Shown one piece after another: positions 9,622 to 64,000 of a stretch of DNA of 64,000 nucleotides; the stretch's first letter is position 1; each line of letters starts with the position of its first letter. The position numbers and the translations under genes are program-made. The DNA is from a virus: positions 124,001-188,000 of the IMG/VR virus record IMGVR_UViG_3300009181_000033; one strand, given 5' to 3'. The notes under the pieces are model-generated. The model was not told the DNA's origin. It made no database searches and was given only the letters and a program-made list of their open reading frames with translations.

Positions 9622-10052
9622 GCATACACCTTGAAGGGGACTATTTTGTTCTTATAGCCATCATAGTCAAGTTTAAATTTTTCAAGACGAGGTTCTATGT
9701 CGTCTGATTTCACTATCCAAAACTGTGCCCCCGCAAGCATTGCTTTGTTGATCTCCCTTTTGTCTGATGAAGAAGAAATGATGCCGATTACCACTCCATT
9801 CCCATAAACGTGATTTATTCTTCTCACCAATTCTATTCCATCAACTGAAGATCCGACAAGATTAAGATCAACAAAAACGCAATCAGGTTTCTTCATCTCC
9901 CCGGCTTGCCATTTTTGGCATAGACGCTCTGCTTCCTCGGCAGAATTGACTGTCATAAGATGAAGAGTGATATCGAGCAAATTACATACATCTTCAAATA
10001 CAAGATGAAATAAATTTTCATCATCTACTAAGAGGAGCGAATCGATTAACAT
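9618..10052 (-). CDS. Stand-alone response regulator receiver
   Basis: A 144-residue CheY-like receiver domain without an output domain. The acidic pocket is D10-D11 (LLLVDDE), the phosphoacceptor is D62 (VFVDLNL), the Ser/Thr switch lies in IISSSSD (about 93-96) and the conserved Lys is K115 (FWIVKSD). All key residues are present, so it should accept phosphate. It overlaps the kinase gene by 7 nt and the membrane-protein gene by 4 nt, forming an operon. Without a DNA-binding domain it probably acts by protein contact, perhaps with the downstream membrane protein. Confidence 0.9.
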   Translation of the reverse strand: MLIDSLLLVDDENLFHLVFEDVCNLLDITLHLMTVNSAEEAERLCQKWQAGEMKKPDCVFVDLNLVGSSVDGIELVRRINHVYGNGVVIGIISSSSDKREINKAMLAGAQFWIVKSDDIEPRLEKFKLDYDGYKNKIVPFKVYA

Positions 10053-21526: not shown

Positions 21527-21729
21527 GTTCTCTCCAAGAATAAATCGTCATTTACTCCATTTAGTTCGATTAAGGCGGACTCCAAATGCACCTGTAATCT
21601 ATAAGATCCTTTTTTTGTCCACATGACGACCCAAGAATCTGGTTCATCAGATTCTTGGATAATGACACCAATGTTTCTGGAATCAGGTTCCCATCTAGAA
21701 GATTTTATGACCAATGAACCAGGGTTCAT
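21511..21729 (-). CDS. Small KOW-like beta-barrel protein, copy 2
   Basis: A 72-residue protein: MNPGSLVIKSS, then NIGVIIQESDEPDSWVVMW and a C-terminal helix-strand. Same layout as the gene downstream (21311-21526). Its ATG overlaps the GroEL stop by 4 nt, so it is translationally coupled with the chaperonin gene. No GroES-like mobile loop is visible, and at 72 residues it is shorter than GroES (about 97), so I do not call it a co-chaperonin. Confidence 0.6.
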   Translation of the reverse strand: MNPGSLVIKSSRWEPDSRNIGVIIQESDEPDSWVVMWTKKGSYRLQVHLESALIELNGVNDDLFLERTCTSK

Positions 21730-23357
21730 CGTGAAGAATTATTTTCCTCTACAATCACAGCATCAAGAGATAAGAATGTTGAAGCAACAGAGGCTGCGTT
21801 CTTCAGGGCTGTCCTAGTTACTTTGACAGGATCTATCACGCCAGTTTCAATTAAATTTTGATATTCAAATGTAGAAGCGTTCCAGCCAGTTAGCTCACCT
21901 GAGTCTCTACGCCTATTCAATTCGTTGATTATAACGTCCTTGCTTTGTCCTGCGTTTTCAGATATTCTGCTGATCGGAGCGACACAAGCATCCAATATAA
22001 CCTTAGCCCCCAAACCGAATTGGTCAACTGAATTTATCTTTCCAGATGACAATTTTCTCCAAACCTCAAATAAAGCCATGCCTCCACCTTGAACTATTCC
22101 TTCATCGACAGCAGCTCGTGTTGCATGAAGAGCATCTTCGATGCGATACTTCCTTTCAATCATTTCTACTTCAGTTGAGCCGCCGACCTTAATCAAAGCC
22201 ACACCAGAAGAAAGTTTGGCTATTCTGGTTTTTAATTTTGTTACTTCATCAAGTGTTAAGGAAATGTCACGCAATTGTGTTTTTAGCTCCAATGTGTGTC
22301 GATCGACATTTTCCTTAGTGGAACCAGAAGAAACCAAAGTACAGTTATCTCTTGTGACGACGACCTTCTTCAATGTGCCAAGGTCAGCTAGTGTTACTTG
22401 TTGCATCTTCACACCTGTGGAGGCTGAAACTATCTTTGCATCTGTCAAGATGCTAATGTCCCTCAAAAGATCATCCTTGTGTTGGCCGTAACCTGGTGAT
22501 TTGATTGCAACAACAGGAAGCGCACCATTGACTCTGTTAACAACAAGTCCTTGAAGGGCTTCACCCTCAACGTCGTCAGCGATAATGAGAAGCGGTGTCT
22601 TTGACTGTGATATCTTTTCGAGAAGAGGAATCATTTCCCTCATGCTGCTGATTTTATGATCAGTCAGCAAAACTCTTACATCGCTATAGGCTGCGTGCAT
22701 CTTCTCTGGATTTGTCACAAAGTAAGGAGAAAGATATCCTCTCTCAAATTGCATTCCCTCGACGAGATCCAAACTGGTCGACATTCCTTTTGCGTCTTCA
22801 ACTGTGATGATTCCATCATTGCCGACTTTTGTCATTGCATCAGCAATCAATTCACCAATTTTTCTATCTCCATTTGCTGAGATAGTTGCAATTTGGGCTA
22901 TTTCTTCTGTCGACGTTAATTGCTTTGCTTCTTCTTTCAAGAGCTGCAAGGCTACATTTAAAGTTTTTTCTATGCCGTCACAAAGTTCTTCTGCATCATA
23001 GCCTGCTTCTAATAACTTCATGCCAGATTTCACCATGGCATGTGTCAAAACGGTTGACGTCGTTGTTCCATCACCTGCAATGTCATTTGTTTGTTCAGCA
23101 GCTTGTCTAATTAGCTGAGCTCCCATTCTCTCGATTGGATCTTTTAATCTAATTGACTTGCTAACTGTCACTCCGTCCTTAGTGACAATGGGTGATGAAT
23201 TTTCATCTTGTTGTATGAGAACAGTCTTGCCTTTAGGACCAAGGGTACAACCAACAGCATTAGCTACTATTTCAACACCCTTAAACAAAGATTTTCTTGC
23301 ATCAGTTGAAAAAACAACACGTGTTGTAGAAGGCAATTTAGTTTCATGTTCAATCAT
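21726..23357 (-). CDS. groEL: GroEL-type chaperonin
   Basis: A 543-residue group I chaperonin of normal length. Signature motifs: GCTLGPKGKTV, ATP-site GDGTTTSTVL (about residues 89-98), a GIITVEDAKG-like apical start, and IVQGGGMALFE near the C-terminal equatorial domain (GGG nucleotide loop). The usual GGM C-terminal tail is missing; the end is acidic/Ser-rich. No GroES gene is visible in the window, so it may use the host co-chaperonin, another phage gene, or none. The binding site is weak. Phage GroELs are known from several large phages and fold phage proteins such as capsid proteins. Confidence 0.93.
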   Translation of the reverse strand: MIEHETKLPSTTRVVFSTDARKSLFKGVEIVANAVGCTLGPKGKTVLIQQDENSSPIVTKDGVTVSKSIRLKDPIERMGAQLIRQAAEQTNDIAGDGTTTSTVLTHAMVKSGMKLLEAGYDAEELCDGIEKTLNVALQLLKEEAKQLTSTEEIAQIATISANGDRKIGELIADAMTKVGNDGIITVEDAKGMSTSLDLVEGMQFERGYLSPYFVTNPEKMHAAYSDVRVLLTDHKISSMREMIPLLEKISQSKTPLLIIADDVEGEALQGLVVNRVNGALPVVAIKSPGYGQHKDDLLRDISILTDAKIVSASTGVKMQQVTLADLGTLKKVVVTRDNCTLVSSGSTKENVDRHTLELKTQLRDISLTLDEVTKLKTRIAKLSSGVALIKVGGSTEVEMIERKYRIEDALHATRAAVDEGIVQGGGMALFEVWRKLSSGKINSVDQFGLGAKVILDACVAPISRISENAGQSKDVIINELNRRRDSGELTGWNASTFEYQNLIETGVIDPVKVTRTALKNAASVASTFLSLDAVIVEENNSSR

Positions 23358-28232: not shown

Positions 28233-28314
28233 GTAATAATAGTAAACAACTTAACAAGATATTTGCACTCACAAAAACAAATAACTCTTCTTGGATTATA
28301 GTTAATAATTGAGT

Positions 28315-29490
28315 ATGTCAATCTTCAAAGAGCACAAAAGCAACGCCGATCGTGTAGCGGGGGATCGTCGAAGACACAAGGAAAAAATTGAGAAAGCAAT
28401 TCGTGAAGGAATTCACAATATAGTTGCCGACGAATCAATTATCGGTCAAGACGGAAAAAAGAAATTTAGAGTGCCCGTAAAAGGAATAAAAGAACACAGA
28501 TTTGTTTATGGGAATAATGGATCAAAACAGGTTGGATCAGCTCCTGGAAAGAACATACAGAAAGGCCAAAAAATAGGTGATGGCGACCAACAAGGACAAA
28601 GTGGTCAGCCAAACAAACCAGGCAGTGACAAGGGCGAAGAGTATTATGATGTTGAAATGTCGCTCGATGAACTAGCTGAATACCTATTTGCAGATTTGGG
28701 GCTTCCTGATCTCGAAAAGAAACAGTTGGCAAATATTGCATCAAAGAGATTCAAGAGATCTGGGTATAGGCCAGATGGAATTATTCCAAGGCTGGACAAA
28801 AAGAAGTCGGCCATAGCGAGAATAAAAAGAATGAAAGCCTCTGGGTTCAAAGAAGAAGAGGCTGAAGAAAGTGAATCATTTCCGTTCCATGAAGACGACT
28901 TGGTTTACCGACACTTTAAAATGAAAACGGAGCCCAATACAAACGCCGTTATTTTCTTTGTCATGGACGTTTCAGGTTCCATGACCGATGACAAAAAGTT
29001 TTTGGCCAGATCATTTTGCTTTTTATTGTATCAATTCATCAGAACAAAATACGAGAAGGTTGACGTCGTATTCGTCACACATGACATGGAAGCAAGAGAG
29101 GTCGACGAAAATGCGTTCTTTACAATATCGACATCTGGCGGAACCGTGGCATCAACAGGTCTCGAAAAAGTCAATGAAATAATAGAAGAAAGATACCCTC
29201 CTTCAAGCTGGAATTGTTATGCATTCCACAATTCAGATGGCGACAATTTCGGAACCGACAACGAGAAATATCTTCAAGAGCATGCGAAACTTGAGGAATC
29301 TGTTCAAATGTTTGGATATGTCGAGCTCGAACCACCTAGAAATTATGGCTACTATGACGAACTAAAACTGTCAGTACTGTTGGCGCCAAAGCTTGGAAAA
29401 AAATCCAGAAGCGTAAGGATAACTCGAAAAGAAGACGTGTGGCCTGCTTTTAAAGAAATTCTCGGCGCGGTCAAGAAAGACTCTGAGTGA
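28315..29490 (+). CDS. yeaH: YeaH/YhbH-family protein (DUF444, vWA)
   Basis: A 391-residue protein of the DUF444 family. The N-terminal half is basic and low-complexity (GQKIGDGDQQGQSGQPNKPG). The C-terminal half is a von Willebrand A-type domain with the MIDAS-like DVSGSM (about residue 217) and later Thr/Asp residues. In bacteria this family is encoded beside PrkA/YeaG and SpoVR/YcgB and is linked to starvation and sporulation. Here all three occur together. The ATG at 28315 is used because the frame's earlier TTG (28309) has no advantage. The next gene starts 13 nt downstream. Confidence 0.88.
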   Translation: MSIFKEHKSNADRVAGDRRRHKEKIEKAIREGIHNIVADESIIGQDGKKKFRVPVKGIKEHRFVYGNNGSKQVGSAPGKNIQKGQKIGDGDQQGQSGQPNKPGSDKGEEYYDVEMSLDELAEYLFADLGLPDLEKKQLANIASKRFKRSGYRPDGIIPRLDKKKSAIARIKRMKASGFKEEEAEESESFPFHEDDLVYRHFKMKTEPNTNAVIFFVMDVSGSMTDDKKFLARSFCFLLYQFIRTKYEKVDVVFVTHDMEAREVDENAFFTISTSGGTVASTGLEKVNEIIEERYPPSSWNCYAFHNSDGDNFGTDNEKYLQEHAKLEESVQMFGYVELEPPRNYGYYDELKLSVLLAPKLGKKSRSVRITRKEDVWPAFKEILGAVKKDSE

Positions 29491-29503
29491 ACAGGAGTGC
29501 AAA

Positions 29504-30823
29504 GTGGAATATAAACCAGAAGACTTAGAAATTTGGGACGAGAAAATCTGCAAAATAGCCAAGGAAAAATATTCCCTTGACTGGTTCCCAATAGAATACG
29601 AATTAATAGACTATTTTTCAATGTTGGGCGCAATGGCGTTCCATGGCCTTCCGAGTCACTTTAATCACTGGTCATTTGGAAAATCATTTGAAAGAACCCA
29701 ACACATGTATGACTTGGGCATGGAAGGACTGCCATACGAATTAATCCTCAATTCAAATCCATCACTAGCATACTTGATGAGAGAAAATCCATTATATCTT
29801 CAGATTCTCATCATGGCGCACTGTGTTGGCCACAGTGATTTCTTCAAAAACAATCGTACATTTAGATTCACGAGACCAGAAACAATCCATGGTCGCTGCA
29901 GGGCAGCCAAGAGAAGGTTTCAAGGGTATGTTGAGAACCCGAACATCGGTATTGAAAAAGTAGAAGAAGTTATTGACGCGTGTTATTCTGTGCAATTCCA
30001 GGCGCCAAAGCCTGGGTGGAGAAGAAGAACGAAACAGCAAATTGTAGAAGATTATCTCGATCGAAAAAAAGAAATGGCGTCGAGGGGACAAAAAATTAAA
30101 GAACTAGACATTGACAAAAAAGTTCTTGAACCTGACTATGACATTCTTGGATTTATCGCAGAAAATGGCGACATGCCTGAATGGAAGCGAGATATCATCG
30201 AGGTGTGCAGAGATGAAGCACAATACTTCTGGCCACAAATGATGACAAAAATCATGAATGAAGGCTGGGCGTCTGTTCATCATTACGACATTTTGCACGA
30301 ACTTGATCTTCCTCCAGAATTTCATTTGCCGTTCATTAAGTCGCACAATCAAGTAATTCGTCCTCATGTCGGAGGAATCAACCCATATCATCTTGGTTTT
30401 CATATGTTCAAAAGAATCAAAGAAAAATATGGTGAACAGGAATGTTTGCTGGCGAGAGAAGTCCACAATGACGCATCGTTCATAAGGCAATATTTGGACG
30501 AAGAAACATGTGTTGAATTAAACTTGTTCTCTTACGCCAAGAGGGGAAATAGCGGAATTTATATAGAAGAAGTTTCCGACAAGGATGGTTGGAAAAAAGT
30601 AAGAGATGATTTAGCGAAACAAGTCGGGGGTGGAGGAGTTCCGATCATCAAGGTGGTCGACGTGAGATGGGACGGCACTCTCATGCTAGATCATGACCAC
30701 GATGGTAGAGATTTGCTTTCAGATGAAGCCGGACACACGGTTTCACATCTCAAGACACTGTGGGGTAAACCTGTCTTTTTAATGACAGTCACCGACAATA
30801 AAGAATGTGTGATATCAAAATAA
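29504..30823 (+). CDS. spoVR: SpoVR-family protein
   Basis: A 439-residue protein of normal SpoVR length. Family landmarks include W-P-I-EYELIDYFSMLGAM, FNHWSFGKSFER, LAYLMRENPLYLQILIMAHC, GHSDFFKNN, and NEGWASVHHYDIL. Its biochemistry is not established; in Bacillus it affects cortex formation and in enterobacteria (YcgB) it is a stress-regulated gene of the same set as yeaGH. GGAG sits 8 nt before the GTG start. It is between the DUF444 and PrkA genes, consistent with a functional three-protein module. Confidence 0.9.
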   Translation: MEYKPEDLEIWDEKICKIAKEKYSLDWFPIEYELIDYFSMLGAMAFHGLPSHFNHWSFGKSFERTQHMYDLGMEGLPYELILNSNPSLAYLMRENPLYLQILIMAHCVGHSDFFKNNRTFRFTRPETIHGRCRAAKRRFQGYVENPNIGIEKVEEVIDACYSVQFQAPKPGWRRRTKQQIVEDYLDRKKEMASRGQKIKELDIDKKVLEPDYDILGFIAENGDMPEWKRDIIEVCRDEAQYFWPQMMTKIMNEGWASVHHYDILHELDLPPEFHLPFIKSHNQVIRPHVGGINPYHLGFHMFKRIKEKYGEQECLLAREVHNDASFIRQYLDEETCVELNLFSYAKRGNSGIYIEEVSDKDGWKKVRDDLAKQVGGGGVPIIKVVDVRWDGTLMLDHDHDGRDLLSDEAGHTVSHLKTLWGKPVFLMTVTDNKECVISK

Positions 30824-30859
30824 AAACCAAATATATATTTTATAATATCAAGAGGAACA

Positions 30860-32794
30860 ATGAGCCTAAAAGAATCACTTCTCCAACAAATACAACAAAA
30901 CAGAACAAAGTCAGAGTCTGAAAAGAAATTTTCTGGAACGCTTATGGATTACGTCGACCAGGTCGAAAAGGATCCCAGCATAGTCAAAACAGCTCACCAA
31001 AGACTAAATGAATCCATTAATGAGCATGGCTCATACGTCATGCCAGACTCAGATTCAAGAAAATACAAGGTATTTGATGGAGAATCCGTCAAAATCTATA
31101 AATACTTTGAAAATGAATTCTTCGGAATGGAGAATGTTGTTTCAAAGGTCATGAGCTTCCTCAATTCAGCAGCTCATCGTGGTGAAGAATCACGTCAAGT
31201 TCTCCTCTTCATGGGCCCTGTTGGCGCCGGCAAGTCCGCCCTAACAGAGCACATCAAGAAAGCACTGGAAGGTAAAAAATTCTATCACCTCAAGGGAGAC
31301 CCTCACCGTGGCGAACCCCTTCAGTTGATTCCACGTTCTCTTAGGGACTCATTTGAAAAACAATTGGGTGTTAAAATCGAAGGAGATATTTCGCCGATTG
31401 CTCGTCACAAGCTCCTCAATGACTACTCCGGACACTACGAAAATTTCGAGGTTGAGGAATCATCTGTGTCACAAAGGGCTCGCAGAGGCATCGGTGTCGT
31501 TCCTCCTATGGACGCCAACAGCCAAGATGTTTCTGTTCTAATCGGTTCTGTTGACATCAGCAAGCTGGACAAATACCCTGAGGATGACCCCCGTGCACTC
31601 TCGCTAACAGGCGCCTTTAACGTTGGCAACCGTGGTATCGTTGAGCTCGTCGAGGTCTTCAAGAATGAAATTGAGTTCCTCCACACCATCATCACAGCCA
31701 CACAAGAGAAGAGAGTTCCATCACCTGGAAAGAGCGACATGCTTCACTTCGATGGGGTCATTATCGCTCACTGTAATGAGGCTGAGTGGGTGAAATTCCA
31801 AGGCGAACACACCAACGAAGCTATCCTCGATCGTATCGTTAAAATCTCAGTGCCTTACTGTCTCGAGCTCAATCAGGAGCAGAAGATCTATGAGAAGATG
31901 TTGGGCAAGTCTGATTTTAAGGCTCACATTGCACCCCACACACTCAAGATAGCTTCCATGTTCTCGGTTATGAGTCGTCTTAAGCCTTCTTCTAAATGCG
32001 ACGCCCTCACCAAAATGAAGATCTATAATGGCGAAGACATTATTGAGAAGGGTCGAGTCAAGAAGGTCGATATTAAGGATCTTCGTGAAGAGGCAAAGCA
32101 TGAAGGCATGGACGGAATTTCAACCCGTTTCATCACCAAGGCAATCGATCACGCCCTGTCGAACTCCGACAAGAACATGGTTACTCCGATATCAATGCTT
32201 GACTCTTTGACTAGAATGGTAAAGGAGCAGATTACAGACGAAGCCTTCAAGAAATCTTGTCTCGAGCTTCTTCAGAAAACTGTTCGCGATGAATATCTCA
32301 AAATTTTGGAGACAGAGGTTTCCAAGGCATTCGTCAATGCATATGAAGAGCAGGCACAGAGCCTTTTCGACAACTATCTTGATCACGCCGAGGCTTATAC
32401 CACACGATGCAAACTAAAGGATCGTGTCACCAAGGAAGAACGTCATCCTGACGAGGAATTCATGAAGTCCATCGAGGAACAGATCGGCATCACAGGCTCT
32501 TCACGTGATGGCTTCCGTTCAGATGTCACAGCATACATGTTTGCCAAGATGCGCAAGGGCGAGAAGGTTGATTACACGACCTATGAGCCATTGAAGGAAG
32601 CAATCGAAGCTTATCTCATTAGCTCTGTGAAGTCGCTTGCTCGTATCGTCACCAAGTCCAAGAGCCGTGACAAAGAGCAGCAAGAGAAGTACTCTGAGAT
32701 GGTCAATACCTTGTGCAAGAAATACAATTACAATCCTGATTCAGCCGAAGAAATATTGGTGTTCTGCGCCAACAATCTCTTTAGAGATAGCTGA
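30860..32794 (+). CDS. prkA: PrkA/YeaG-type serine protein kinase
   Basis: A 644-residue protein of typical PrkA length. The N-terminal AAA+ module has Walker A GPVGAGKSAL (about residues 118-127). FFGMENVVSKVMSFLNSAAH and HFDGVIIAHCNEAEW match the family. The C-terminal third is the helical PrkA domain. YeaG/PrkA is a Ser/Thr protein kinase (also proposed to be a Lon-like ATP-dependent protease) that acts in starvation responses. AGAGG precedes the ATG by 6 nt. A strong terminator follows, closing the DUF444-SpoVR-PrkA unit. Codon use here appears more C-ending than in neighbours (many CTC, GGC and GTC), suggesting high expression or recent acquisition. Confidence 0.92.
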   Translation: MSLKESLLQQIQQNRTKSESEKKFSGTLMDYVDQVEKDPSIVKTAHQRLNESINEHGSYVMPDSDSRKYKVFDGESVKIYKYFENEFFGMENVVSKVMSFLNSAAHRGEESRQVLLFMGPVGAGKSALTEHIKKALEGKKFYHLKGDPHRGEPLQLIPRSLRDSFEKQLGVKIEGDISPIARHKLLNDYSGHYENFEVEESSVSQRARRGIGVVPPMDANSQDVSVLIGSVDISKLDKYPEDDPRALSLTGAFNVGNRGIVELVEVFKNEIEFLHTIITATQEKRVPSPGKSDMLHFDGVIIAHCNEAEWVKFQGEHTNEAILDRIVKISVPYCLELNQEQKIYEKMLGKSDFKAHIAPHTLKIASMFSVMSRLKPSSKCDALTKMKIYNGEDIIEKGRVKKVDIKDLREEAKHEGMDGISTRFITKAIDHALSNSDKNMVTPISMLDSLTRMVKEQITDEAFKKSCLELLQKTVRDEYLKILETEVSKAFVNAYEEQAQSLFDNYLDHAEAYTTRCKLKDRVTKEERHPDEEFMKSIEEQIGITGSSRDGFRSDVTAYMFAKMRKGEKVDYTTYEPLKEAIEAYLISSVKSLARIVTKSKSRDKEQQEKYSEMVNTLCKKYNYNPDSAEEILVFCANNLFRDS

Positions 32795-54358: not shown

Positions 54359-54626
54359 ATTCGTCCTCCAGGGTGTCTTTATCAACCAAAAAATCGGTGC
54401 CCTCAGGCGTCTTCAATATAGCATCGCGAGGACCAACTGAAACAATCGTATAGAGAAATTGAGTCTTCTTGTGTCTCAACTTCAAATCCTTATCCAAGAC
54501 CTGTTCTTCTTTTCCATCGACCTTGGTTTTAAAAATGGCATCAACGCTCTCAGACAATGTTTTGAGTTTTGCATCCCACTCTTCTCTCATTATCCGGATG
54601 ATTTCAGATTCAGTAAGTTTTTTCAT
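54345..54626 (-). CDS. Hypothetical small protein
   Basis: A 93-residue protein. The N-terminal helix (LTESEIIRIMREEWDAKL) resembles the recurrent motif loosely. The C-terminal 50 residues form a likely SH3-like barrel (KKTQFLYTIVSVGPRDAIL, TDFLVDKDTLEDEY). Its ATG overlaps the dCMP deaminase stop (ATGA). Function unknown. Confidence 0.6.
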   Translation of the reverse strand: MKKLTESEIIRIMREEWDAKLKTLSESVDAIFKTKVDGKEEQVLDKDLKLRHKKTQFLYTIVSVGPRDAILKTPEGTDFLVDKDTLEDEYELD

Positions 54627-55057
54627 GTTTCTCCCTTAAATATTATGTCGGAGAATCTAATTACTTCAATACCGCAAGATTTAATCAATTCAATGCCTTC
54701 GGTGTTTCTATATTCATTTTCGTAAACAACCCTATGAATATTTGCATTGATAATTAATTTAGAACACTGTGGACATGGAGAGTGAGTCAAATACATCGTC
54801 TTCTCTTGGTTGAAGTTATAATCACATTTTATAAGCGAATTAACTTCAGCGTGAATAAATCCGCTCTGGCCAGGATCTAAAGAGTCTGGTTCATTGGGGC
54901 CTCCCCGATAATTTCCGTTATATCCTAAAGACAAAAGTCTAGTGTTGTCTTTGGAGACTATAATCGATCCTACTTTGAGTCTTGGATCATAAGATCGATC
55001 AGCGACAGTACGAGCAATGCTCATCCATGTTTCATCCCAAGAAGGTCTTCTACTCAT
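54623..55057 (-). CDS. Deoxycytidylate (dCMP) deaminase-like enzyme
   Basis: A 144-residue protein of the CDA fold with zinc motifs HAEVN (H-A-E) and PCPQC, spaced about 30 residues apart, and an N-terminal VADRSYDPRLKVGSIIV typical of ComEB/dCMP deaminases. It would convert dCMP to dUMP. The start at 55057 directly follows the TK stop and has GGAA upstream. In a phage also encoding a dCMP-hydroxymethylase-like enzyme it would divert dCMP to dUMP, or deaminate a modified dCMP. Confidence 0.9.
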   Translation of the reverse strand: MSRRPSWDETWMSIARTVADRSYDPRLKVGSIIVSKDNTRLLSLGYNGNYRGGPNEPDSLDPGQSGFIHAEVNSLIKCDYNFNQEKTMYLTHSPCPQCSKLIINANIHRVVYENEYRNTEGIELIKSCGIEVIRFSDIIFKGET

Positions 55058-55058
55058 A

Positions 55059-55637
55059 TTAATTTCCATATGTTTTTTGTCTATTGTCAACATAAAGATA
55101 GTGACTATAGCACCTGGGTTCATACAATTCTGAGCCACCCACCTCTATTTCATCACCACCCGTCTGTTTTTTATGAGTATAGTGTGCATCTCTTCCACAC
55201 ACAGTGCAAACAGCCGTGCACTTCTCAAGACTTGTTGCCCAAACAGACATTTTTTCTATCTCTTCAAATGGCTTACCAGTCGCAGACATCTCAAGAGATG
55301 AGACTACAATAGTAAACCCATTCTTATATAACCACACCAAAGACTCGGCTATTCCTGGAATCATGAATGCTTCATCTACTGCAATCACCTGAGGGTTGTC
55401 CGGAGAATTGGCAAGATGCTCAAGAAGATCAACTCCCGTCTTTACACGAACGGCAGGCAACTTCCATCCAGCATGTGTGACAATTTCTCCTTCGCCATAC
55501 CGGTCATCCATAGAAGGCTTAAAAGCTACAACTTTCTTGTGTTGGTACTTGTATCTCTCAAGGGCTGAGAGTAGCCTCGAGGTCTTCGAGGAAAACATGG
55601 GACCGGTATAGACTATGAATTCGGGATTGTTTGACAT
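55059..55637 (-). CDS. tdk: Thymidine kinase
   Basis: A 192-residue type II (TK1-like) thymidine kinase. The P-loop is GPMFSSKTSRLL (about 12-23), the Walker B-type motif VIAVDEAFMI (Asp-Glu), and the Zn-binding part has CTVCGRDAHYTHKK with later Cys-His (PRCYSHY). It should phosphorylate thymidine to dTMP. It is encoded 1 nt from the dCMP deaminase, forming a nucleotide-salvage pair. Confidence 0.93.
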   Translation of the reverse strand: MSNNPEFIVYTGPMFSSKTSRLLSALERYKYQHKKVVAFKPSMDDRYGEGEIVTHAGWKLPAVRVKTGVDLLEHLANSPDNPQVIAVDEAFMIPGIAESLVWLYKNGFTIVVSSLEMSATGKPFEEIEKMSVWATSLEKCTAVCTVCGRDAHYTHKKQTGGDEIEVGGSELYEPRCYSHYLYVDNRQKTYGN

Positions 55638-55638
55638 A

Positions 55639-56595
55639 TCACATTTCCTTTAGACGGTGCCAGTTGGATAAGTACCAATCTATCGTCTGATCAAGTCCAT
55701 TCCAAAAGTCCATCACAGGCTCATATCCTATAACGTTTTTCGACTTTCTTATACACGCATGAGTATGCATAATATCACCCGGGCGCCATGGAGCAACATG
55801 ATGTTTGGCGTCAGGAAACCTACTCAAGAGATAGTCTAGAATTTCTTTATTGGAATAACTTAAGCCACATGCAACGTTAAATGCTTCACCTTTCAGTTGA
55901 TTTTCTGCAAGGGCAGCCTTGATGCAAGCTTCAACGACATTGTCGACGTGACACATGTCTCTTGTTTGGGAGCCATCACCATCAGATCTCATCGAATTTC
56001 CTGACATAATGGCAGTTAACCACGCAGACACAGCTGTTGAATAAGGGGAGCCACCGAGCTGATTATTCCCGAAGACATTAAAGAATCTCATGCAAGCAGA
56101 GTCCAAGCCGTAGAGTTTCGAATAAAGCCCAAGGTATTGTTCTATCAATAATTTCTGTAGTCCATATGGTGACTCCGGAACTGTATTTGCTCTTTCATCT
56201 GTTGGCAATAAATCTACTTGTCCATATACGGCTGATGAAGAAGCAAAGATAAACCTCTTGATGTTTCCCTTGCAAGCGTCAATTAGCTCAAGACTCTTGG
56301 TGACATTCGTATCATTGGTTTTAATGGGTTGCTCTACGGAATAGGAAACTCGAGGATTGGCCGCGAGGTGGAACACATAATCGTATTTTCCATCTCTTAT
56401 TCTTTTTAATATACGTGGAGAAGAAAAATCAGAAACTATCAAATTTTCTGATTCGATTGCAAATGGAATGAAAGTCAAATTTCCATTTGACATATCATCC
56501 ACCATGTCAACTTCCCAATTGTCATTAATCAACTTTAAAGAGAGGTTGCTTCCAATGAAACCACAGCCACCAGTCACCAATGCTCTTTTATTCAT
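55639..56595 (-). CDS. NAD-dependent nucleotide-sugar epimerase
   Basis: A 318-residue extended short-chain dehydrogenase (UDP-glucose 4-epimerase/dehydratase type). Rossmann motif VTGGCGFIGSNL at residues 8-19, SSAVYGQ (catalytic Ser/Thr), and YGLQK (YxxxK), together with FFNVFGNNQ and GEAFNVACG near the C-terminus. It would act on a nucleotide-activated sugar. With the RmlD-like reductase, UDP-sugar pyrophosphorylase and glycosyltransferase, it may make a special sugar. Flanked by pyrimidine genes, which suggests a DNA-modification link. Confidence 0.88.
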   Translation of the reverse strand: MNKRALVTGGCGFIGSNLSLKLINDNWEVDMVDDMSNGNLTFIPFAIESENLIVSDFSSPRILKRIRDGKYDYVFHLAANPRVSYSVEQPIKTNDTNVTKSLELIDACKGNIKRFIFASSSAVYGQVDLLPTDERANTVPESPYGLQKLLIEQYLGLYSKLYGLDSACMRFFNVFGNNQLGGSPYSTAVSAWLTAIMSGNSMRSDGDGSQTRDMCHVDNVVEACIKAALAENQLKGEAFNVACGLSYSNKEILDYLLSRFPDAKHHVAPWRPGDIMHTHACIRKSKNVIGYEPVMDFWNGLDQTIDWYLSNWHRLKEM

Positions 56596-56601
56596 AAACT
56601 C

Positions 56602-57612
56602 TCATTTCTTAAAATAATGATAACCCTTAAAAAGGGTGCCTTCCAAAATAAGATTTGAAAGATTCTTGTCATTCAACTTGATGGCCCTGTGCGAAGCCAA
56701 AATTTTGCACCAATCATTCCAGTATGGGTCGTTGGCTTCAAAATGCTTTGCCGTGTTGCCCAAAGCAATCAACAGTTGTTTGTTTGTCTTTGCCTTTCGG
56801 AAATTTGTCTCCACAATTGAAAGGCCGACAGTTGGAACTTCACTTGGGAGCTCTGGCATTTCCTCGGGCAGTTCGTGCCTAAACTTCCAAGAATCATCAA
56901 TGATCTTTTCAACCATCCCGAAGTGTCTCTCGTAAATGTGAAGAGAACCACTTGTGTGAATATAGTCGCCAAGACCAATCGGTCTTCCTAGTTCCTTCGT
57001 TAATTGAATCGCCAATAGTTCCTGGAACAAGGTAAAGGCAGGGACATCATAGGCCAACCCAAGGATTAAATCAGAAGAACGCATGGTTGTGACCATGTGC
57101 ACCTTATCTTTCCTGAGGAAAAACTGGAGGGACAAGGTGCAAGGCACATCAAGGTTGGCATAAATCGAATCCTTAGGTGACCTGATATGAATTATTGCAC
57201 GCCTTGAATCAGGATCTTTCTTGAGCTCATCTACGACATACTTCCACTGAGACCAATCCTCAGAAACATCGCCTGCAATCCTGTCGTGTGGTCTGAATAT
57301 TCTTGCGCCGTATGCACTGTTCGCAGTCTTGCCGTCATCTGAAATCTTTGACCAGAATGTCGAATAGTTTGAAATCCAACTCGTTGAATCATTTGCGCTA
57401 AAATACCACAGCAGCTCAGCAATCATATAGTGAATGGAAAAATCCCTCTCCTTCACATAAGGAATTCTATTCCTCGGGTTCGTGATCTTAAACTGATAGG
57501 CGATGCTCTCCTTGATTCCTAGTCCGCGAGGAGAAGAAGAATACTCAGGATTTTCATAAACATCCTTGAGGATGTCAAGGTAAGCATCGGTGAAATTGTC
57601 GTAAGTTCTCAT
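56602..57612 (-). CDS. Thymidylate synthase-family dCMP hydroxymethylase-like enzyme
   Basis: A 336-residue member of the thymidylate synthase family. The catalytic Cys lies in DVPCTLSLQFFL, and phosphate-binding Arg in DSRRAIIHIRSP. In the nucleotide motif the sequence is RSSDLILGLAYDVPAF, whereas TS has RSxDxxLGLPFNIASY; the Asn (E. coli N177) that reads dUMP is Asp, the hallmark of dCMP hydroxymethylases such as T4 gp42. So the substrate is probably dCMP and the product hydroxymethyl-dCMP. YIHTSGSLHIYERH is the conserved C-terminal active-site strand. It abuts a degenerate TS-like gene. Confidence 0.85.
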   Translation of the reverse strand: MRTYDNFTDAYLDILKDVYENPEYSSSPRGLGIKESIAYQFKITNPRNRIPYVKERDFSIHYMIAELLWYFSANDSTSWISNYSTFWSKISDDGKTANSAYGARIFRPHDRIAGDVSEDWSQWKYVVDELKKDPDSRRAIIHIRSPKDSIYANLDVPCTLSLQFFLRKDKVHMVTTMRSSDLILGLAYDVPAFTLFQELLAIQLTKELGRPIGLGDYIHTSGSLHIYERHFGMVEKIIDDSWKFRHELPEEMPELPSEVPTVGLSIVETNFRKAKTNKQLLIALGNTAKHFEANDPYWNDWCKILASHRAIKLNDKNLSNLILEGTLFKGYHYFKK

Positions 57613-57613
57613 A

Positions 57614-58258
57614 TTATTTTCCCGTCAAGAGATGGTAGGAGTCAATGAAATTCTGCCACTTGTCGTGGTTCTGACAGGTCGAAGAATAAACAGATAAATT
57701 AACCTGTTGCTTTGAATAGATCGGTTTAATGAAAAACTCTGTGATGGTCAGGATGTCAATAAGCAGCTCATTCTCAACATCAGAAGCCCTGAACACCAAT
57801 CGAGGAGAGTCCTTGAAATAATGTATCAGATTGAGGCACGTCACATCTTGAGGTGACAACATCTCACTGTCAGAATATTCTGTGAATGGATTTGCAAACC
57901 GAACAACACATCGACGTGTGTCTGGTTTCTTCGTAAGATGTTTCTTTATCTCTTCCAACAAGAATGTGTAATTGACATTGTTGTGTTTTTCACAAGCCAC
58001 CGTATAAATGGTTGACCTGAGAGAAGGTAGTTTCGTCAAGGATCGAAGACTAGGTCTTGATTCGGAAAATTCAGCAAAAACACTCGGCTTAATGTTGTGA
58101 CTTGCGAAGGCATTTCTTTTTGTGTCATAATAGGCTGCCACATCAGGAGATAAATTCTTAAGTCTCCTGATCGCCTCATCTCCCAAGGGAAGATTAGTCA
58201 CATCAAGACGAATGAGATAATCATCATTTTCGAATTCTGGCTTCTTTACTGTAATCAT
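57614..58258 (-). CDS. Divergent thymidylate synthase-fold paralogue
   Basis: A 214-residue protein that aligns with the TS core of its neighbour: TRRCVVRFANP (phosphate Arg), DVTCLNLIHYF (catalytic-type Cys), RASDVENELLIDILTITEF (against RSSDLILGLAYDVPAF), and VNLSVYSSTCQNHDKW (against SLHIYERHFGMVEK). The N-terminal third of the TS fold is missing or altered and the His of the C-terminal strand is gone, so it may be a non-catalytic partner or use another substrate. The ATG at 58258 has GGATGA before it; it lies 4 nt after the carbamoyltransferase stop. Confidence 0.68.
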   Translation of the reverse strand: MITVKKPEFENDDYLIRLDVTNLPLGDEAIRRLKNLSPDVAAYYDTKRNAFASHNIKPSVFAEFSESRPSLRSLTKLPSLRSTIYTVACEKHNNVNYTFLLEEIKKHLTKKPDTRRCVVRFANPFTEYSDSEMLSPQDVTCLNLIHYFKDSPRLVFRASDVENELLIDILTITEFFIKPIYSKQQVNLSVYSSTCQNHDKWQNFIDSYHLLTGK

Positions 58259-58262
58259 TTTT

Positions 58263-60029
58263 TCATCCATCAAAATCACAGAGAAAGAGGTAAGGTAGTT
58301 CGAGGTTCATTTCCTGAGCCTTGTCAAATTCAAACTTAAAGCTATCAAGAACACTGTCAATTGCGTAAACAATCGGACGACCGTGGGCATTGAAGCTAGT
58401 GTTAATTAGCGCCTTAGATTTCGGATAGATCTTGGAGAGCACCTCGAACATAAATGTATCGTTCGATGTTACTCTCTGGGGGCGACCTGACCAAACCTCT
58501 CTGTTAGGATATTTATGTGCAATGCCTCCATAGTTCTCAAGATCAGGATTTAAATAGTTATAGGTCAGGATCATATACTTGTCTGAGCCTACCACTCTCT
58601 TTGAAATGTCTTTGTCAAAGAATTCATCAATCGCTGAATCCAACATAACAGGGGCCATAGGCATAACGGTGTCTCTCTCATTTAGATCATTGATGATCAT
58701 AACGTTAGTTGTCGTTGGAATGGAAAGAGTGGTCGTGCTGCAAAGAGCCCGAGGGCCAAATTCCATCCTGGACTTGACAACGTTGACAAGTTTGTTCCTG
58801 GAGACCAAATCGACCGTATCATCAATCGCTGTTGATCTTTGGTTGGAAGAATAATGCCTAATATGACTACCGTATTTCTTTAAATCACTTGGAGAAATAC
58901 AACTATCCCAATCAGCGAACTCTGGTCGAGGGCCCCACTTAAGGTCTCCCCATTTAAATCCGCCAACAAAAGCCTCGTACATTCCCATTCCGCAACCCTG
59001 GTCACCTGCCAGGGGGACAACTGAAAACACTCCGGAAGTAGAATTTAGAACCTTGTTGTTGAGCTTCACATTGTAGAAAATTCCACCAGAAAGAGCCACG
59101 TGTTTCATGTTGTTGGCACTGACGATCTTCGCCAGGACACCTTCAATCACCTCTTGAATGTAATGACCAATTGCGATCCTAACATCACGACCAGTGATGC
59201 TCGGGGCCACCTTGGATAGAACGTCGGCGTAATGCTCATTCCATGACTGCTTTACAGTCTTGAGATAATCGATGTTGGCGAGGCCGTCAGTCTTCCAATT
59301 CTCCGGACGACCATCTGGTTTCGCCTGCATTGTATCGAACATCTCTTGAGACTTCTTTACAGCAAGGCTCCGGAGCAAATCAATTTGTGTTGAATCCAAT
59401 AGCTGTGAAACATGTGTCTCATAGCCAAGGAACTTATACTCATCCTGGTTCTCCTTCATCCCACAGAAGGAGGTCGCAAACTGATACATCAGGCCAAGTG
59501 AATACTGATATCCGTAATATCTGTTGACCAGCTGGGGAACTGTGCCGAGAGAATCGGTGCTATAGACACTAATGACTTCCTGTGAATTGCCAAATCCATC
59601 TGCAGCGATGATGTGAAACTTATCATAACTTACAACCTGAGATGAATGTTTAGAAACATCCCACTGATCTCTCATGAAGGAAAGAGCTGACATGGCATGT
59701 GCGTCGTGATGAGTGAAGTCCTCGCCCAAGTGAACTGTCTTTAGAGAATATTTGACCACGAGAGAATCAAAGTGTTGCTTGTCAAAGTACTTGCTGGTCT
59801 CTGTGTGGAAATCAAACTTATCGAACCAATGAGAAACAAAAATATAGCTGCCTGGCTCGATCTTAACGTGCTTCTCGATCTCATCCAAAGAAAGACGAGG
59901 ATATGCGCTGGAAGATTTAATGCGATTGATTCGCTCCTCTTCATAACCGATGACAGTCTTGTCACCATCGAAATAAACAGCAGAAGAGTTGTGCCCGAGA
60001 GTAATCATTAATGCAGACTTTTTGTTCAT
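58263..60029 (-). CDS. Carbamoyltransferase (NodU/CmcH family)
   Basis: A 588-residue protein of the O-carbamoyltransferase family. The N-terminal Kae1-like domain has ITLGHNSSAVYF and the metal motif HHDAHAMSA (about residues 107-115); ALSGGIFYNVKLN lies mid-protein. The C-terminal domain has SRMEFGPRALC and ALINTSFNAHGRPIVY, both conserved. The enzyme transfers carbamoyl from carbamoyl phosphate (via an adenylate) to a hydroxyl. Known phage members make 5-carbamoyloxymethylcytosine from hydroxymethylcytosine. Location beside the dCMP-hydroxymethylase-like gene supports that role here. Confidence 0.9.
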   Translation of the reverse strand: MNKKSALMITLGHNSSAVYFDGDKTVIGYEEERINRIKSSSAYPRLSLDEIEKHVKIEPGSYIFVSHWFDKFDFHTETSKYFDKQHFDSLVVKYSLKTVHLGEDFTHHDAHAMSALSFMRDQWDVSKHSSQVVSYDKFHIIAADGFGNSQEVISVYSTDSLGTVPQLVNRYYGYQYSLGLMYQFATSFCGMKENQDEYKFLGYETHVSQLLDSTQIDLLRSLAVKKSQEMFDTMQAKPDGRPENWKTDGLANIDYLKTVKQSWNEHYADVLSKVAPSITGRDVRIAIGHYIQEVIEGVLAKIVSANNMKHVALSGGIFYNVKLNNKVLNSTSGVFSVVPLAGDQGCGMGMYEAFVGGFKWGDLKWGPRPEFADWDSCISPSDLKKYGSHIRHYSSNQRSTAIDDTVDLVSRNKLVNVVKSRMEFGPRALCSTTTLSIPTTTNVMIINDLNERDTVMPMAPVMLDSAIDEFFDKDISKRVVGSDKYMILTYNYLNPDLENYGGIAHKYPNREVWSGRPQRVTSNDTFMFEVLSKIYPKSKALINTSFNAHGRPIVYAIDSVLDSFKFEFDKAQEMNLELPYLFLCDFDG

Positions 60030-60094
60030 AGATTCTCCAGAAGATTTTTATCTTACACCTGTATCAGTAACTTGTCTCTCAAAAAATGGACAAA

Positions 60095-60574
60095 TTATTT
60101 TCGCCTTTTGTATTCAGAAATAACGAATTCCAAATTCTGTTCGTTGGGCTCAATGATGAATTTGTCAATATTCAAAGTGGGATAGATCTCACGATATGCC
60201 ACCTTCACCTTTTCATTCTGTTCCTTCGTAACTGTCTCTTCCCTGCCAATCCAAGGTCGATTGAGCTCGAGCAAGATCATGAAGTACCCTAGATCAGAGA
60301 ATTTGCTCTCAATTTTGTCCTTGATTTCTGTGGTGATGTTGTTTCTCGAAAAGACCTTGCCATAGGACAGCTCGGAAATGTAAGAGCGATCGAAAACAAA
60401 CGGTCCACCTCGCTGGTCGATATCAACGAAATATCCGTTGAAATAATCATAATCCTTGGCAGCCGGTCCGTAATGAATCACCTCAATCCCTAGGCGCTCC
60501 TGCAGCTTCTTGCAGAAAGTCGTCTTGCCCTGCTGTTCAGCTCCCTCAACAATAATTCCACCTGTCTTCATCAT
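60095..60574 (-). CDS. P-loop deoxynucleotide kinase
   Basis: A 159-residue kinase. Walker A is VEGAEQQGKTTF (residues about 9-20) and the base-pocket-type motif is VFDRSYISELSYG, as in thymidylate kinase and phage dNMP kinases. It is shorter than TMK (about 210) and lacks an obvious LID region beyond residue 110. Coupled to DnaE by ATGA overlap. It probably phosphorylates a normal or modified deoxynucleotide, supplying triphosphate precursors. Confidence 0.85.
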   Translation of the reverse strand: MMKTGGIIVEGAEQQGKTTFCKKLQERLGIEVIHYGPAAKDYDYFNGYFVDIDQRGGPFVFDRSYISELSYGKVFSRNNITTEIKDKIESKFSDLGYFMILLELNRPWIGREETVTKEQNEKVKVAYREIYPTLNIDKFIIEPNEQNLEFVISEYKRRK

Positions 60575-63500
60575 TCCTCCTCTAGGATCTTAATCTTGCT
60601 CATGAAGGTTTTGCACCCGTAAGAATCAATGGTGATCTCAGAGATACAAACCGAATATTCCGGGAACTCCTTCTTCCCATCCCATCCCCAACAAAACACT
60701 CTCTTTAGCTGTCCAGATGGGCCAGAAGCATCCAGAATCAAATAAGGCTTGCCATTCTTCGTTTCTTTTTTCTTGGCATTAAGAACGACAAACCAGCAAA
60801 TGTCGCTGGCCTCGATCTCGTCAATCGGCCTGATGTTTTTCTCGTTGAATTTCCTCAAGATGTAATCGGGAACAAGGGAGATTGGGTTGAATGTGCTGAG
60901 GAACTTCGTGCAGTTACTGACGAACTCTTTTCTCGTCCAATCTTCCATGTCCTCAGTCGAGAGAAGGAGGTCCCTGAAGGCCTCCATTCCAGCAAATGGA
61001 TTCTTCTTGGTCGACTTCTTAATATCGTTGCTCTTGTTAATCAGGATCTCGTGCATCTGTTTGTAGCTACTAAAGGTCTTGCCAGGACCAACGGAGTCGA
61101 GAGAATCGAAAGCCTTGATTGAAATCAGGGCCTCGAGGCCTCGCTTATTAAACTTGGAGTGCCTCCACGTGCCATCCTCTGTCCAGAGGAGTTGTTCAAT
61201 TGACTCGTAAGGTCGATTCTCGATAATCTCCTCGATAGCCGATGAACCGACGCCTTTGCAGGAAAGGAAACTCGGCATGAATCTCTTTCCGTCGAGGATT
61301 GTCCATGAGGCTGTGGCGTGATTGATGTCAATGGGAACAATCTTATATCCAAGGGCCTTAACCTCAGAGAAAGCCTTTGTTCGTTTGTCATCGCTGTCCG
61401 ACATGGACTCGAGATAAGCACAGAGCCACTCCTCCTCGAAGTAAGTCAGGAGCCATGCACAATAGTAGGAATCGATAGCGTAAGAGAAGGCATGTGCAGA
61501 ATTAAAGCCGTAACCGGCGAAGAACAAAATCTTTTCATAAAGATCGTCTGCAACTTTTTCAGGCACTCCGTTCTTAATGGCCCCAGCGACAAAGTCCACC
61601 TTCGTTTTCTTGGCTTCCTCAACACCCTTCGCACCATCCTTGGCAGTCGTCTTCTTCATGATGTTTCGTCGGATGGTGTCCGTCTCTGTCTCAGGGAAAC
61701 CAGCCACAACAGAGCACAATTTCATTACCGATTCCTGGAAAATGATGCAACCAAAGCTTGGCTCGAGAACCTGCTTGATCAGTGGATGCTGATAATCGAT
61801 CTTGTCAGGATTTGCCTTGGCGTCCAAATACAACTTGTCGACGTTTGCGGCCAAGGGACCGGGACGATAGATTGAAGTCAATGTTGCAATGTCGAGGATG
61901 CTCCTCGGCTTTGCCTTCATGAATAGTCTCTGTGCACCGGCGTTGGCGAGCTGGAAGATGCCGGCGAATCGACCTTCGTGGTACACGTACTCATAGACCT
62001 TCTGGTCGTTTAGGTCGATGTTCTTCGGATCCATGTGCTTATCAAACCAAGCACGAACCTGTGCGAAAGTCGGATTCTCGATACCTTCACGGCGCTGGAG
62101 GATGAGCGAAATGCATCGCTCAATAATCCTCAAGGTTTCAAGGCCAAGGAGGTCGAACTTAATCCAACCGAGCTCCTCAAGGTGCTTGGCAGCCATGCCT
62201 TCGGCCCATGGAGTCTGAGGCTCGCCCCTCGCAAGAATCAGAGGCATCCTTTCTGCGATGTTTTCAGAAACAATGACTCCTCCAGCATGGCGACCCAAGG
62301 ACCTGTTCTGTCGAAAGAGAATCTTGATGGGATCGGCAACCTCGGGATGAGCCGCAATGAAGTTCTGGAGGGACTTCGAATATTGAATGGCGTCCTCGTA
62401 AGAGAGGACGAAGCTGTTCTTGTCATGTCCTGGCTTGAAGATGACCTTTTTGACATCATCCTCGATCGGTGCCATGGCAGCGTTGACCTCCTCGAATGGA
62501 ATTCCATAGAACTTAGAAATGTCCTTGATGAGGCTCTTCAGCTTGAAGGTGTTGTAATTGGAGATCGGAATGACATTCTCGTTGCCAAAGTTCTTTCGGA
62601 GCAACTCAATCAACCTGTCTCGGTCGGAGATATCACTATCGATATCAGGGAATCCTGAATTGTGTGTCAGCGTCCAATTTGTTCCTGATGTAGAAACCCA
62701 AAAAGTGTGATCTTCATCAACTTCAATGTCAATCAAATTGACATCATTCTCATGATCAATGATCTCGATCTTGTTGATCTTTGTAGGCTCTTGTTGAACA
62801 AAGAAATTATCCATTGGCAGTATGTGCTGTGCTTGAACTTCAATTTGTTTGCCTTCCCTTAGGACTAACCAAATATGATTTGGTGAACATTCGAAAATAT
62901 TAGAGCTCACATGAAGTCTGTATGTTTTCTTAGAGTTAGAATTAAATTTCTTTTTGATTTTTCGAGGAACTAAAGAACCCCCAACAACAACATCACCTTC
63001 AACTAGCTCTTCGATTTTTTTATGCCCGCTCGGTGTTTTCACCAAAGTCCCAGGCAAAAGACATCGATGGGGATTCATGAATCTCTCGAAAGGAAGATCA
63101 TATTCGATAGGATCGAGGTTGGTAATGCCAAGGACGTATGCAACGAGAGCACCAGCAGCAGAGCCACGACCAGGACCAATCAACATGTTTTCCCTGGCGA
63201 TGTCGAGAATCTTTTTCATGGTCAAGAAGTAATTGGAGAACTTCTTGTCCTTGATGATCTTCAGCTCGTACTTGAGTCGATCGATGTATTCCTGCTTGTC
63301 CTCCAAACCTCGCCAAACAAGACCCTTCTTGCAAGCCTCGACTAGAGCCTTGTCTTCAGTTAGTCCCTCAGGAATGGCATAGGAAGGCAGCTTCATGGAT
63401 CGATCAGGGTGTGCCTCCTGCAGCTCATTATGAACGATGTCGTGTGTCCTCTCGATTGCATCACAAACAATCGTATCATCATAGAAGGACATTCCTTCTG

Positions 63501-64000
63501 TTGTCTTACGATAGGTGTCCCAAAGCTGTGTGGCATTCTTGGGATAAAGCTCACACTTTAGATCTTCTACGGTTTGAGGAAGATCCTTGGGATTGAAACT
63601 CTGATAGTTCAACCACCCAAGCTTCTTATAGATCTCCCTCTCCCGCCAGTGCTCAGGTCGAGAATAGTGAGAGTCACAAGTGACAACAAGGCGGTCAGTC
63701 AAGGAATTTCGCTTGGCAAATTCGATGATCGCGCGGTTGGCAAGGTGCTGCGCTGACAGCTTGTTAAACTGAATCTCGAGACAGACGTTTTCCTTACCAA
63801 CCGCATCAGAGAGTCGATCGTAGGTGTTGCCCATGGAATTGAGCACCTTTTCCATGAGAGACTGATCGTTGAGCAAGTCATGCTTCAGATCATCGAATGG
63901 AATCTTCTGGAGCTGCTCAAAGATATCGTAACAAAGTGGGCCACCAAGGCATGCTGTGCTCACCATAAGGTGGCCACCCTTGGCAGCTTCCTTCAACATG
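60571..64000 (-). CDS. dnaE: DNA polymerase III alpha subunit with mini-intein, 5'-truncated
   Basis: At least 1142 residues; the N-terminal part of the PHP domain lies beyond the right edge. Visible: rest of PHP domain (VVTCDSHYSRPEH), palm GPGRGSAAGALVAYVLG, active-site Asp motif PDIDSDISD, third Asp IKFDLLGLETL, and fingers NSAHAFSYAIDSYYCAWL, followed by HhH and OB-type segments near the C-terminus (KETKNGKPYLILDASG). A 135-residue intein interrupts it just before PDIDSD. A bacterial-type PolIII alpha is unusual but known in large phages. The partner exonuclease is not seen. Confidence 0.93.
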   Translation of the reverse strand, partial: MLKEAAKGGHLMVSTACLGGPLCYDIFEQLQKIPFDDLKHDLLNDQSLMEKVLNSMGNTYDRLSDAVGKENVCLEIQFNKLSAQHLANRAIIEFAKRNSLTDRLVVTCDSHYSRPEHWREREIYKKLGWLNYQSFNPKDLPQTVEDLKCELYPKNATQLWDTYRKTTEGMSFYDDTIVCDAIERTHDIVHNELQEAHPDRSMKLPSYAIPEGLTEDKALVEACKKGLVWRGLEDKQEYIDRLKYELKIIKDKKFSNYFLTMKKILDIARENMLIGPGRGSAAGALVAYVLGITNLDPIEYDLPFERFMNPHRCLLPGTLVKTPSGHKKIEELVEGDVVVGGSLVPRKIKKKFNSNSKKTYRLHVSSNIFECSPNHIWLVLREGKQIEVQAQHILPMDNFFVQQEPTKINKIEIIDHENDVNLIDIEVDEDHTFWVSTSGTNWTLTHNSGFPDIDSDISDRDRLIELLRKNFGNENVIPISNYNTFKLKSLIKDISKFYGIPFEEVNAAMAPIEDDVKKVIFKPGHDKNSFVLSYEDAIQYSKSLQNFIAAHPEVADPIKILFRQNRSLGRHAGGVIVSENIAERMPLILARGEPQTPWAEGMAAKHLEELGWIKFDLLGLETLRIIERCISLILQRREGIENPTFAQVRAWFDKHMDPKNIDLNDQKVYEYVYHEGRFAGIFQLANAGAQRLFMKAKPRSILDIATLTSIYRPGPLAANVDKLYLDAKANPDKIDYQHPLIKQVLEPSFGCIIFQESVMKLCSVVAGFPETETDTIRRNIMKKTTAKDGAKGVEEAKKTKVDFVAGAIKNGVPEKVADDLYEKILFFAGYGFNSAHAFSYAIDSYYCAWLLTYFEEEWLCAYLESMSDSDDKRTKAFSEVKALGYKIVPIDINHATASWTILDGKRFMPSFLSCKGVGSSAIEEIIENRPYESIEQLLWTEDGTWRHSKFNKRGLEALISIKAFDSLDSVGPGKTFSSYKQMHEILINKSNDIKKSTKKNPFAGMEAFRDLLLSTEDMEDWTRKEFVSNCTKFLSTFNPISLVPDYILRKFNEKNIRPIDEIEASDICWFVVLNAKKKETKNGKPYLILDASGPSGQLKRVFCWGWDGKKEFPEYSVCISEITIDSYGCKTFMSKIKILEEE
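62659..63063 (-). other. Mini-intein in DnaE
   Basis: A 135-residue in-frame insert between extein NPHR and SGFPDIDSD. It begins CLLPGTLVKTPSGHKK (block A, Cys1), has SPNHIWLV (block B His), NLIDIEVDEDHTFWVS (block F) and ends TLTHN (block G) before Ser+1. No LAGLIDADG or other homing-endonuclease domain fits within it. All splicing residues are present. Confidence 0.92.

Follow-up and report, generated by a model that had tools for sequence, protein, structure and literature searches.

A minus-strand operon that most likely replaces genomic cytosine by 5-carbamoyloxymethylcytosine (5cmC), as judged from its sequence, was identified in an uncultivated phage. The window, which is the whole stretch of 64,000 nucleotides that was analysed, corresponds to bases 124001-188000 of a virus record of 297,894 bases (~298 kb). 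In the order of transcription, the operon contains the genes encoding DNA polymerase III alpha, a small P-loop kinase, a carbamoyltransferase, a companion protein (X), a TS-family enzyme, an SDR epimerase, a thymidine kinase and a dCMP deaminase. Adjacent genes mostly touch, overlap or are separated by gaps of a few bases. The pathway itself belongs to a known kind; the companion X, a predicted TS-fold protein, is what is new. The preliminary description had located the TS-family, carbamoyltransferase, kinase and polymerase genes correctly and on the minus strand; it was silent on the X open reading frame (57614-58279) and on the epimerase, thymidine kinase and dCMP deaminase genes (54623-56595).

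The TS-family enzyme (56602..57612, minus strand, 336 aa, PF00303 1.5e-31) is a predicted dCMP 5-hydroxymethylase, an assignment supported by its active site. The best match among PDB sequences was the CMP hydroxymethylase MilA (9e-42), ranking before the dTMP synthases, and T4 dCMP hydroxymethylase matched at 9e-13. Active-site residues were tabulated from an alignment of the window enzyme with E. coli TS (PDB-confirmed sequence), T4 gp42, MilA and relatives. An Asp at the E. coli N177 position had been claimed earlier, with the reservation that it might not align there; the alignment with E. coli TS places the Asp at that very position. At every tabulated position the window enzyme carries the gp42 residue, namely Glu58, Trp80, Ser (T4 Ser94), Tyr94, Arg126/127, Asp (T4 Asp145), Cys146, Thr147, Ser167, Asp169, Gly173, Asp177, His207 and Tyr209. 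The hydroxymethylase-specific Ser94, Asp145 and Thr(H147) are all present, as are the catalytic Cys, Glu58 and Ser94/Tyr96/Asp145 (T4 numbering) expected of a dCMP 5-hydroxymethylase. In the T4 enzyme, Ser94 and Asp145 are needed for hydroxymethylation, and Asp145 activates water (PMC6400193). T4 gp42 (1b49, 6a9b) has all tested catalytic and specificity residues in common with the window enzyme; the latter differs in being extended at the C-terminus, in grouping with MilA-type sequences and not with gp42 in the tree, and in having carbamoylation, not glucosylation, as its associated step.

MilA (5jnh, 5b6d) is, by sequence, the nearest solved structure. The CMP preference of MilA is due to Lys133 and Ala176 (PMC5175136), whereas the window enzyme has Arg and Ser at these positions, which is the deoxy (dCMP) type; a CMP substrate was accordingly set lower as a candidate. 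The dUMP-type signature is not found in the window enzyme either. The canonical dTMP synthases that some related phages encode in addition have Leu, His and Asn at the diagnostic positions, so the diagnostic signature separates the two functions. PF00303 is matched only once in the genome, and ThyX is encoded separately, so the window enzyme need not make dTMP.

Enzymes of the TS family that make 5-hydroxy-dCMP (the flavin type of RB69 and AfhB) or 5-methyl-dCMP are also cytosine enzymes with Asp177 (PMC13390438), and the window enzyme could in principle form one of these products rather than 5-hydroxymethyl-dCMP. The 5-hydroxy-dCMP synthase RB69 ORF048c/AfhB (9iqc, 9iqu) shares the TS fold, Asp177 and the dCMP substrate with it. 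However, in RB69 ORF048c (near-identical to 9iqc, AfhB) Trp80 is replaced by Ala, T4 Asp145 by Glu, Asp169 by Asn, Gly173 by Val and Tyr209 by Phe, whereas the window enzyme has the T4 residue at all five sites and so lacks the RB69-type signature. The presence of the Ser94 and Asp145 that T4 hydroxymethylation needs also argues against both products. A 5-methyl product would moreover give the neighbouring carbamoyltransferase no hydroxyl to act on; the residue comparison with these rivals covered the RB69 type. Either of these products is given a very low probability, and 5-hydroxymethyl-dCMP is retained as the predicted product.

The NodU/CmcH/TobZ-type O-carbamoyltransferase (58263..60029, minus strand, 588 aa) contains both domains of its family, PF16861 (5.5e-23) and PF02543 (2.2e-11), and matches phrog_1601 (5.4e-58). 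That a phage hydroxymethylcytosine carbamoyltransferase was already known, as the preliminary description stated, is borne out by the MetaGPA enzyme, which was demonstrated by LC-MS to carbamoylate 5hmC (eLife 2021, PMC8670742). The window protein is 31% identical to this enzyme. In a tree of 72 carbamoyltransferase sequences, a 51-row clade (support 100/100) contains the proven enzyme, the proteins of Xp15 and of Acinetobacter and Bacteroides phages, and the window protein. Because the window protein shares this clade with the proven enzyme, the modification class is one known since 2021, and a 5hmC carbamoyltransferase is the supported prediction for the window gene. The two systems share the fold family and co-occurring genes (TS family, dCMP deaminase), but X is found in the window operon in addition, and the phage here is 298 kb in size and has PolIII. 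The equivalents of TobZ W408/G421/R423 (numbering inferred from spacing) are V/C/T in the window and I/C/T in the characterised enzyme, so that two of three specificity-associated positions agree; the diagnostic C and T of the motif MEFGPRALC.TT are common to both. The residue equivalent to TobZ R423, which was flagged in the eLife study (PMC8670742), is Thr in 50 of 51 TS-linked rows and Arg in 20 of 21 unlinked rows. In one relative (L018, 715-2391) the carbamoyltransferase is split over two adjacent open reading frames by a frameshift, an intron or a sequencing error.

Linkage to TS genes was counted by hmmsearch over the open reading frames of the carbamoyltransferase loci. A TS-family gene adjoins the carbamoyltransferase gene in 46 of the 50 other members of the window's clade, but in the second viral clade, with 21 members, there is no such case (Fisher p 2e-14, with rows that are related and not independent). 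Three of the members without such a neighbour (L047, L057 and L064) are cut by contig ends; the fourth, L021, has an Asp177 TS gene elsewhere on its contig. This linkage bears on the proposal that the carbamoyltransferase has a sugar or glycan as its substrate, like NodU and TobZ, with the TS neighbour being incidental. The SDR epimerase in the operon and the glycosyltransferases elsewhere in the genome would suit a sugar substrate; however, besides the linkage, the proven 5hmC enzyme falls inside the window's clade and most other loci are without the epimerase. A sugar or glycan substrate is thus considered very unlikely, and 5hmC is preferred.

The small P-loop kinase (60095..60574, minus strand, 159 aa) matches phrog_761 (thymidylate kinase) at 9e-9 and may act on 5hm-dCMP. 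A separate TMPK-like open reading frame is located near ThyX, at another site of the genome. Where the flanking sequence of a locus was long enough, a small P-loop open reading frame occurs near the carbamoyltransferase gene in 47 of 60 TS-linked loci, some of which are repeat copies of one contig, and in 0 of 15 unlinked loci. In the relative L003, an open reading frame that by eye is ATP-grasp and HAD-type-like (4162-5436) lies between the kinase and the carbamoyltransferase genes.

In the proposed pathway, the TS-family enzyme at 56602 would convert dCMP and methylene-tetrahydrofolate to 5hm-dCMP, which the kinase at 60095 and the host NDP kinase would convert to 5hm-dCTP. The carbamoyltransferase at 58263 would use carbamoyl phosphate and ATP to carbamoylate the hydroxyl group, on 5hm-dCTP and/or nascent DNA, and the phage polymerase would incorporate the modified base. 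The characterised enzyme carbamoylates 5hmdCTP as well as DNA, and prefers single-stranded to double-stranded DNA (PMC8670742), so the order of the steps is not fixed. The earlier 5cmC reading therefore stands as regards the gene set, TS signature, clade and linkage, but not as regards its fixed order of incorporation followed by carbamoylation. Residue 177, the Ser94/Asp145/Thr(H147) set, the deoxy specificity, the lack of an RB69-type signature, the carbamoyltransferase clade and the linkage to TS genes could each have broken the pathway reading, and all agree with it. Counting against it are the identity of only 31% to the proven enzyme, the lack of a PRA-PH or MazG match above the cut-off and the dUTPase_2-like match, which covers only part of its profile. 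Gene identities, active-site residues, clades and linkage are read from the sequence; from these we infer the substrates, the order of steps and the completeness of replacement.

Several neighbouring genes may supply or adjust nucleotides. The thymidine kinase (55059..55637, minus strand, PF00265 8e-38) and dCMP deaminase (54623..55138, minus strand, PF00383 4e-21, phrog_174 1.4e-51) genes are assigned to nucleotide supply, and dCMP deaminase-related open reading frames occur in ~40 carbamoyltransferase loci. The DNA polymerase III alpha gene (60571..63999, minus strand, PF07733, PF17657, Hint_2) continues to ~64596, past the window end. It is preceded, outside the window, by a homing-type endonuclease open reading frame, a 123-aa nucleotide pyrophosphatase (PF08761 8e-6, profile partly covered; phrog_12184 6.5e-12) and another epimerase. 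This dUTPase_2-type pyrophosphatase may lower dCTP. About 10 kb further on are TMPK-like, glutamine-synthetase-like and ThyX open reading frames, of which ThyX was identified by a Pfam-model match and the other two were named from reading the starts of the open reading frames only; ThyX and the TMPK-like protein would supply dTMP. PRA-PH, which accompanies the module elsewhere, and MazG had no match above the cut-off in the profile searches. A mini-intein (Hint) is present at ~62650-63070 inside the PolIII alpha gene. The PolIII alpha of L003 has no insert at this site, and that of L002 has a larger, different insert elsewhere in the gene.

The SDR nucleotide-sugar epimerase (55639..56595, minus strand, PF01370 1e-47) is a member of the operon whose connection to the modification is uncertain. 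It is found in the close clade only and is missing from most other carbamoyltransferase loci; in the relative L003, another epimerase lies farther along. Several glycosyltransferases (GT1/GT2) and SDR epimerases are also encoded in the genome, so a further sugar step is conceivable, in which 5hmC would be glycosylated additionally or alternatively with a sugar nucleotide from the epimerase. This is judged improbable: epimerase genes lie in or near the operon and GT1/GT2 genes elsewhere, but the operon itself is without a glycosyltransferase and only the close clade has the epimerase. Carbamoylation is kept as the predicted modification.

Other genes in the window include a phage-encoded sensor histidine-kinase-like protein with GAF, PAS and HATPase domains (10046-11635), a possible fibre protein of 1702 aa (14833-19941) that has collagen repeats and one YadA head repeat, and a phage-encoded GroEL-like chaperonin (21726-23357, phrog_5725 2e-151). 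At 28309-32794, adjoining DUF444 (YeaH-like) and SpoVR genes are followed by a gene for a 644-aa phrog_22605 protein (perhaps PrkA), a bacterial stress-type gene set in a phage.

Companion X (57614..58258, minus strand) has ~214 aa from a conserved ATG; the listed open reading frame, between the carbamoyltransferase and TS genes, has 221 codons and a GTG start at 58279. Searches of Pfam, PHROGs, NCBIfam, PDB sequences and 50,697 phage records with X returned no match. When viral and genome contigs were queried with X, relatives turned up, and others were seen beside carbamoyltransferases, giving 13 distinct sequences: that of the window and 12 relatives with ~35-56% identity to it. A carbamoyltransferase is present on every X contig (13/13 distinct sequences). 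In one case (L137), the trio of X, carbamoyltransferase and TS genes was met on a contig that had been assigned by binning to a Patescibacteria genome but is probably a phage contig.

Alignment of X with TS gave an hhalign probability of 87.6 (E 3.5e-6), and two divergent members match the TS profile directly (~1e-4). An AlphaFold (AF2) model built from 12 sequences has a pLDDT of 90 and replaced an earlier model from 6 sequences (pLDDT 68). The top Foldseek match of the model is MilA (E 1e-5, probability 1.00), with dTMP synthases also among the best. TM-scores (0.4-0.6 to the query) and rmsd are modest, and X is therefore a strongly diverged TS relative. By sequence comparison and modelled structure, X is a TS superfamily homologue with a predicted TS fold.

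The equivalents of Cys146, Asp177 and Tyr94 are retained in all X sequences and Arg126/127 in most, whereas in all of them Glu58 is replaced by Lys and Trp80 by Leu/Phe, and His207/Tyr209 are lost; Gly173 is replaced by Glu. Glu58 is required for folate activation (PMC6400193), so folate-dependent hydroxymethylation by X is unlikely. The loss of Glu58, Trp80, His207 and Tyr209 would also be expected of a decaying pseudo-enzyme of no importance. That reading is very improbable, however, since open frames are kept in 12 aligned sequences, the most distant at ~36% identity, with invariant Cys148, Arg164, Ser166, Asp167, Asp175 and Tyr92, and linkage to the carbamoyltransferase is constant. X is instead regarded as a putative cytosine-nucleotide-binding partner of the carbamoyltransferase or the hydroxymethylase, without folate chemistry. 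It would bind a 5-substituted cytosine nucleotide via the kept Asp177/Arg/Cys site; more speculatively, a 3'-linked strand could be accommodated where the residues gripping the 3'-hydroxyl have been lost.

Two further degenerate TS lineages were found. In loci of the Bacteroides-phage type, the normal Asp177 hydroxymethylase is accompanied by the product of a second TS gene, in which Glu58 is Met/Leu/Ile and Asp169 is mostly Asn. In the Gln58 group, the TS gene abuts the carbamoyltransferase gene and encodes Gln at Glu58 and Lys/Glu/Arg at Tyr209. X (on a long branch), the second TS of the Bacteroides-phage type and the Gln58 type each form one clade of the TS tree (all 100) in separate places. 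All three are accompanied by carbamoyltransferases from a single 29-row subclade (98/94), a pattern suggesting, though not establishing, that the carbamoyltransferases of this subclade have a TS-fold partner. The two longest contigs of the Gln58 group are not alike: a separate Asp177 hydroxymethylase is encoded on L073, whereas the only other TS seen on L034 is canonical. Hydroxymethylation in L034 might thus fall to the Gln58 protein, or the contig might be incomplete. It is tentatively proposed, as a possibility well short of probable, that the 5hmC carbamoyltransferase subclade uses a degenerate TS-fold partner, derived from TS-family ancestors in up to three lineages, that recognises a cytosine nucleotide through Asp177. 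The retained Cys may act on the 5-hydroxymethyl or 5-carbamoyloxymethyl group, and the partner may be a substrate-presenting subunit or a further-modification enzyme with carbamate as leaving group.

The carbamoyltransferase, Asp177 TS and small kinase of the window are also found in Xanthomonas phage Xp15, Acinetobacter phage Effie and Bacteroides phage BF503P1. Unlike the window, these modules are without X, and BF503P1 has a second TS-family gene without Glu58 instead. A 218-aa gene at the place of X in BF503P1 was considered as a possible X and rejected, as it encodes a P-loop kinase. 5cmC has been demonstrated for a single purified enzyme, encoded on a sewage contig (PMC8670742), and no later report of 5cmC in a phage's DNA was found in the searchable literature. 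The presence of the same module in the named phages Xp15, Effie, MD-2021a, HHU4 and BF503P1 means that 5cmC can be sought there directly. The conserved, unannotated TS-fold gene X is likely to complete or modify the pathway across one large subclade, and a TS-family protein with the nucleophile and the base-reading residue but without the folate machinery would represent a novel use for a very well-studied fold.
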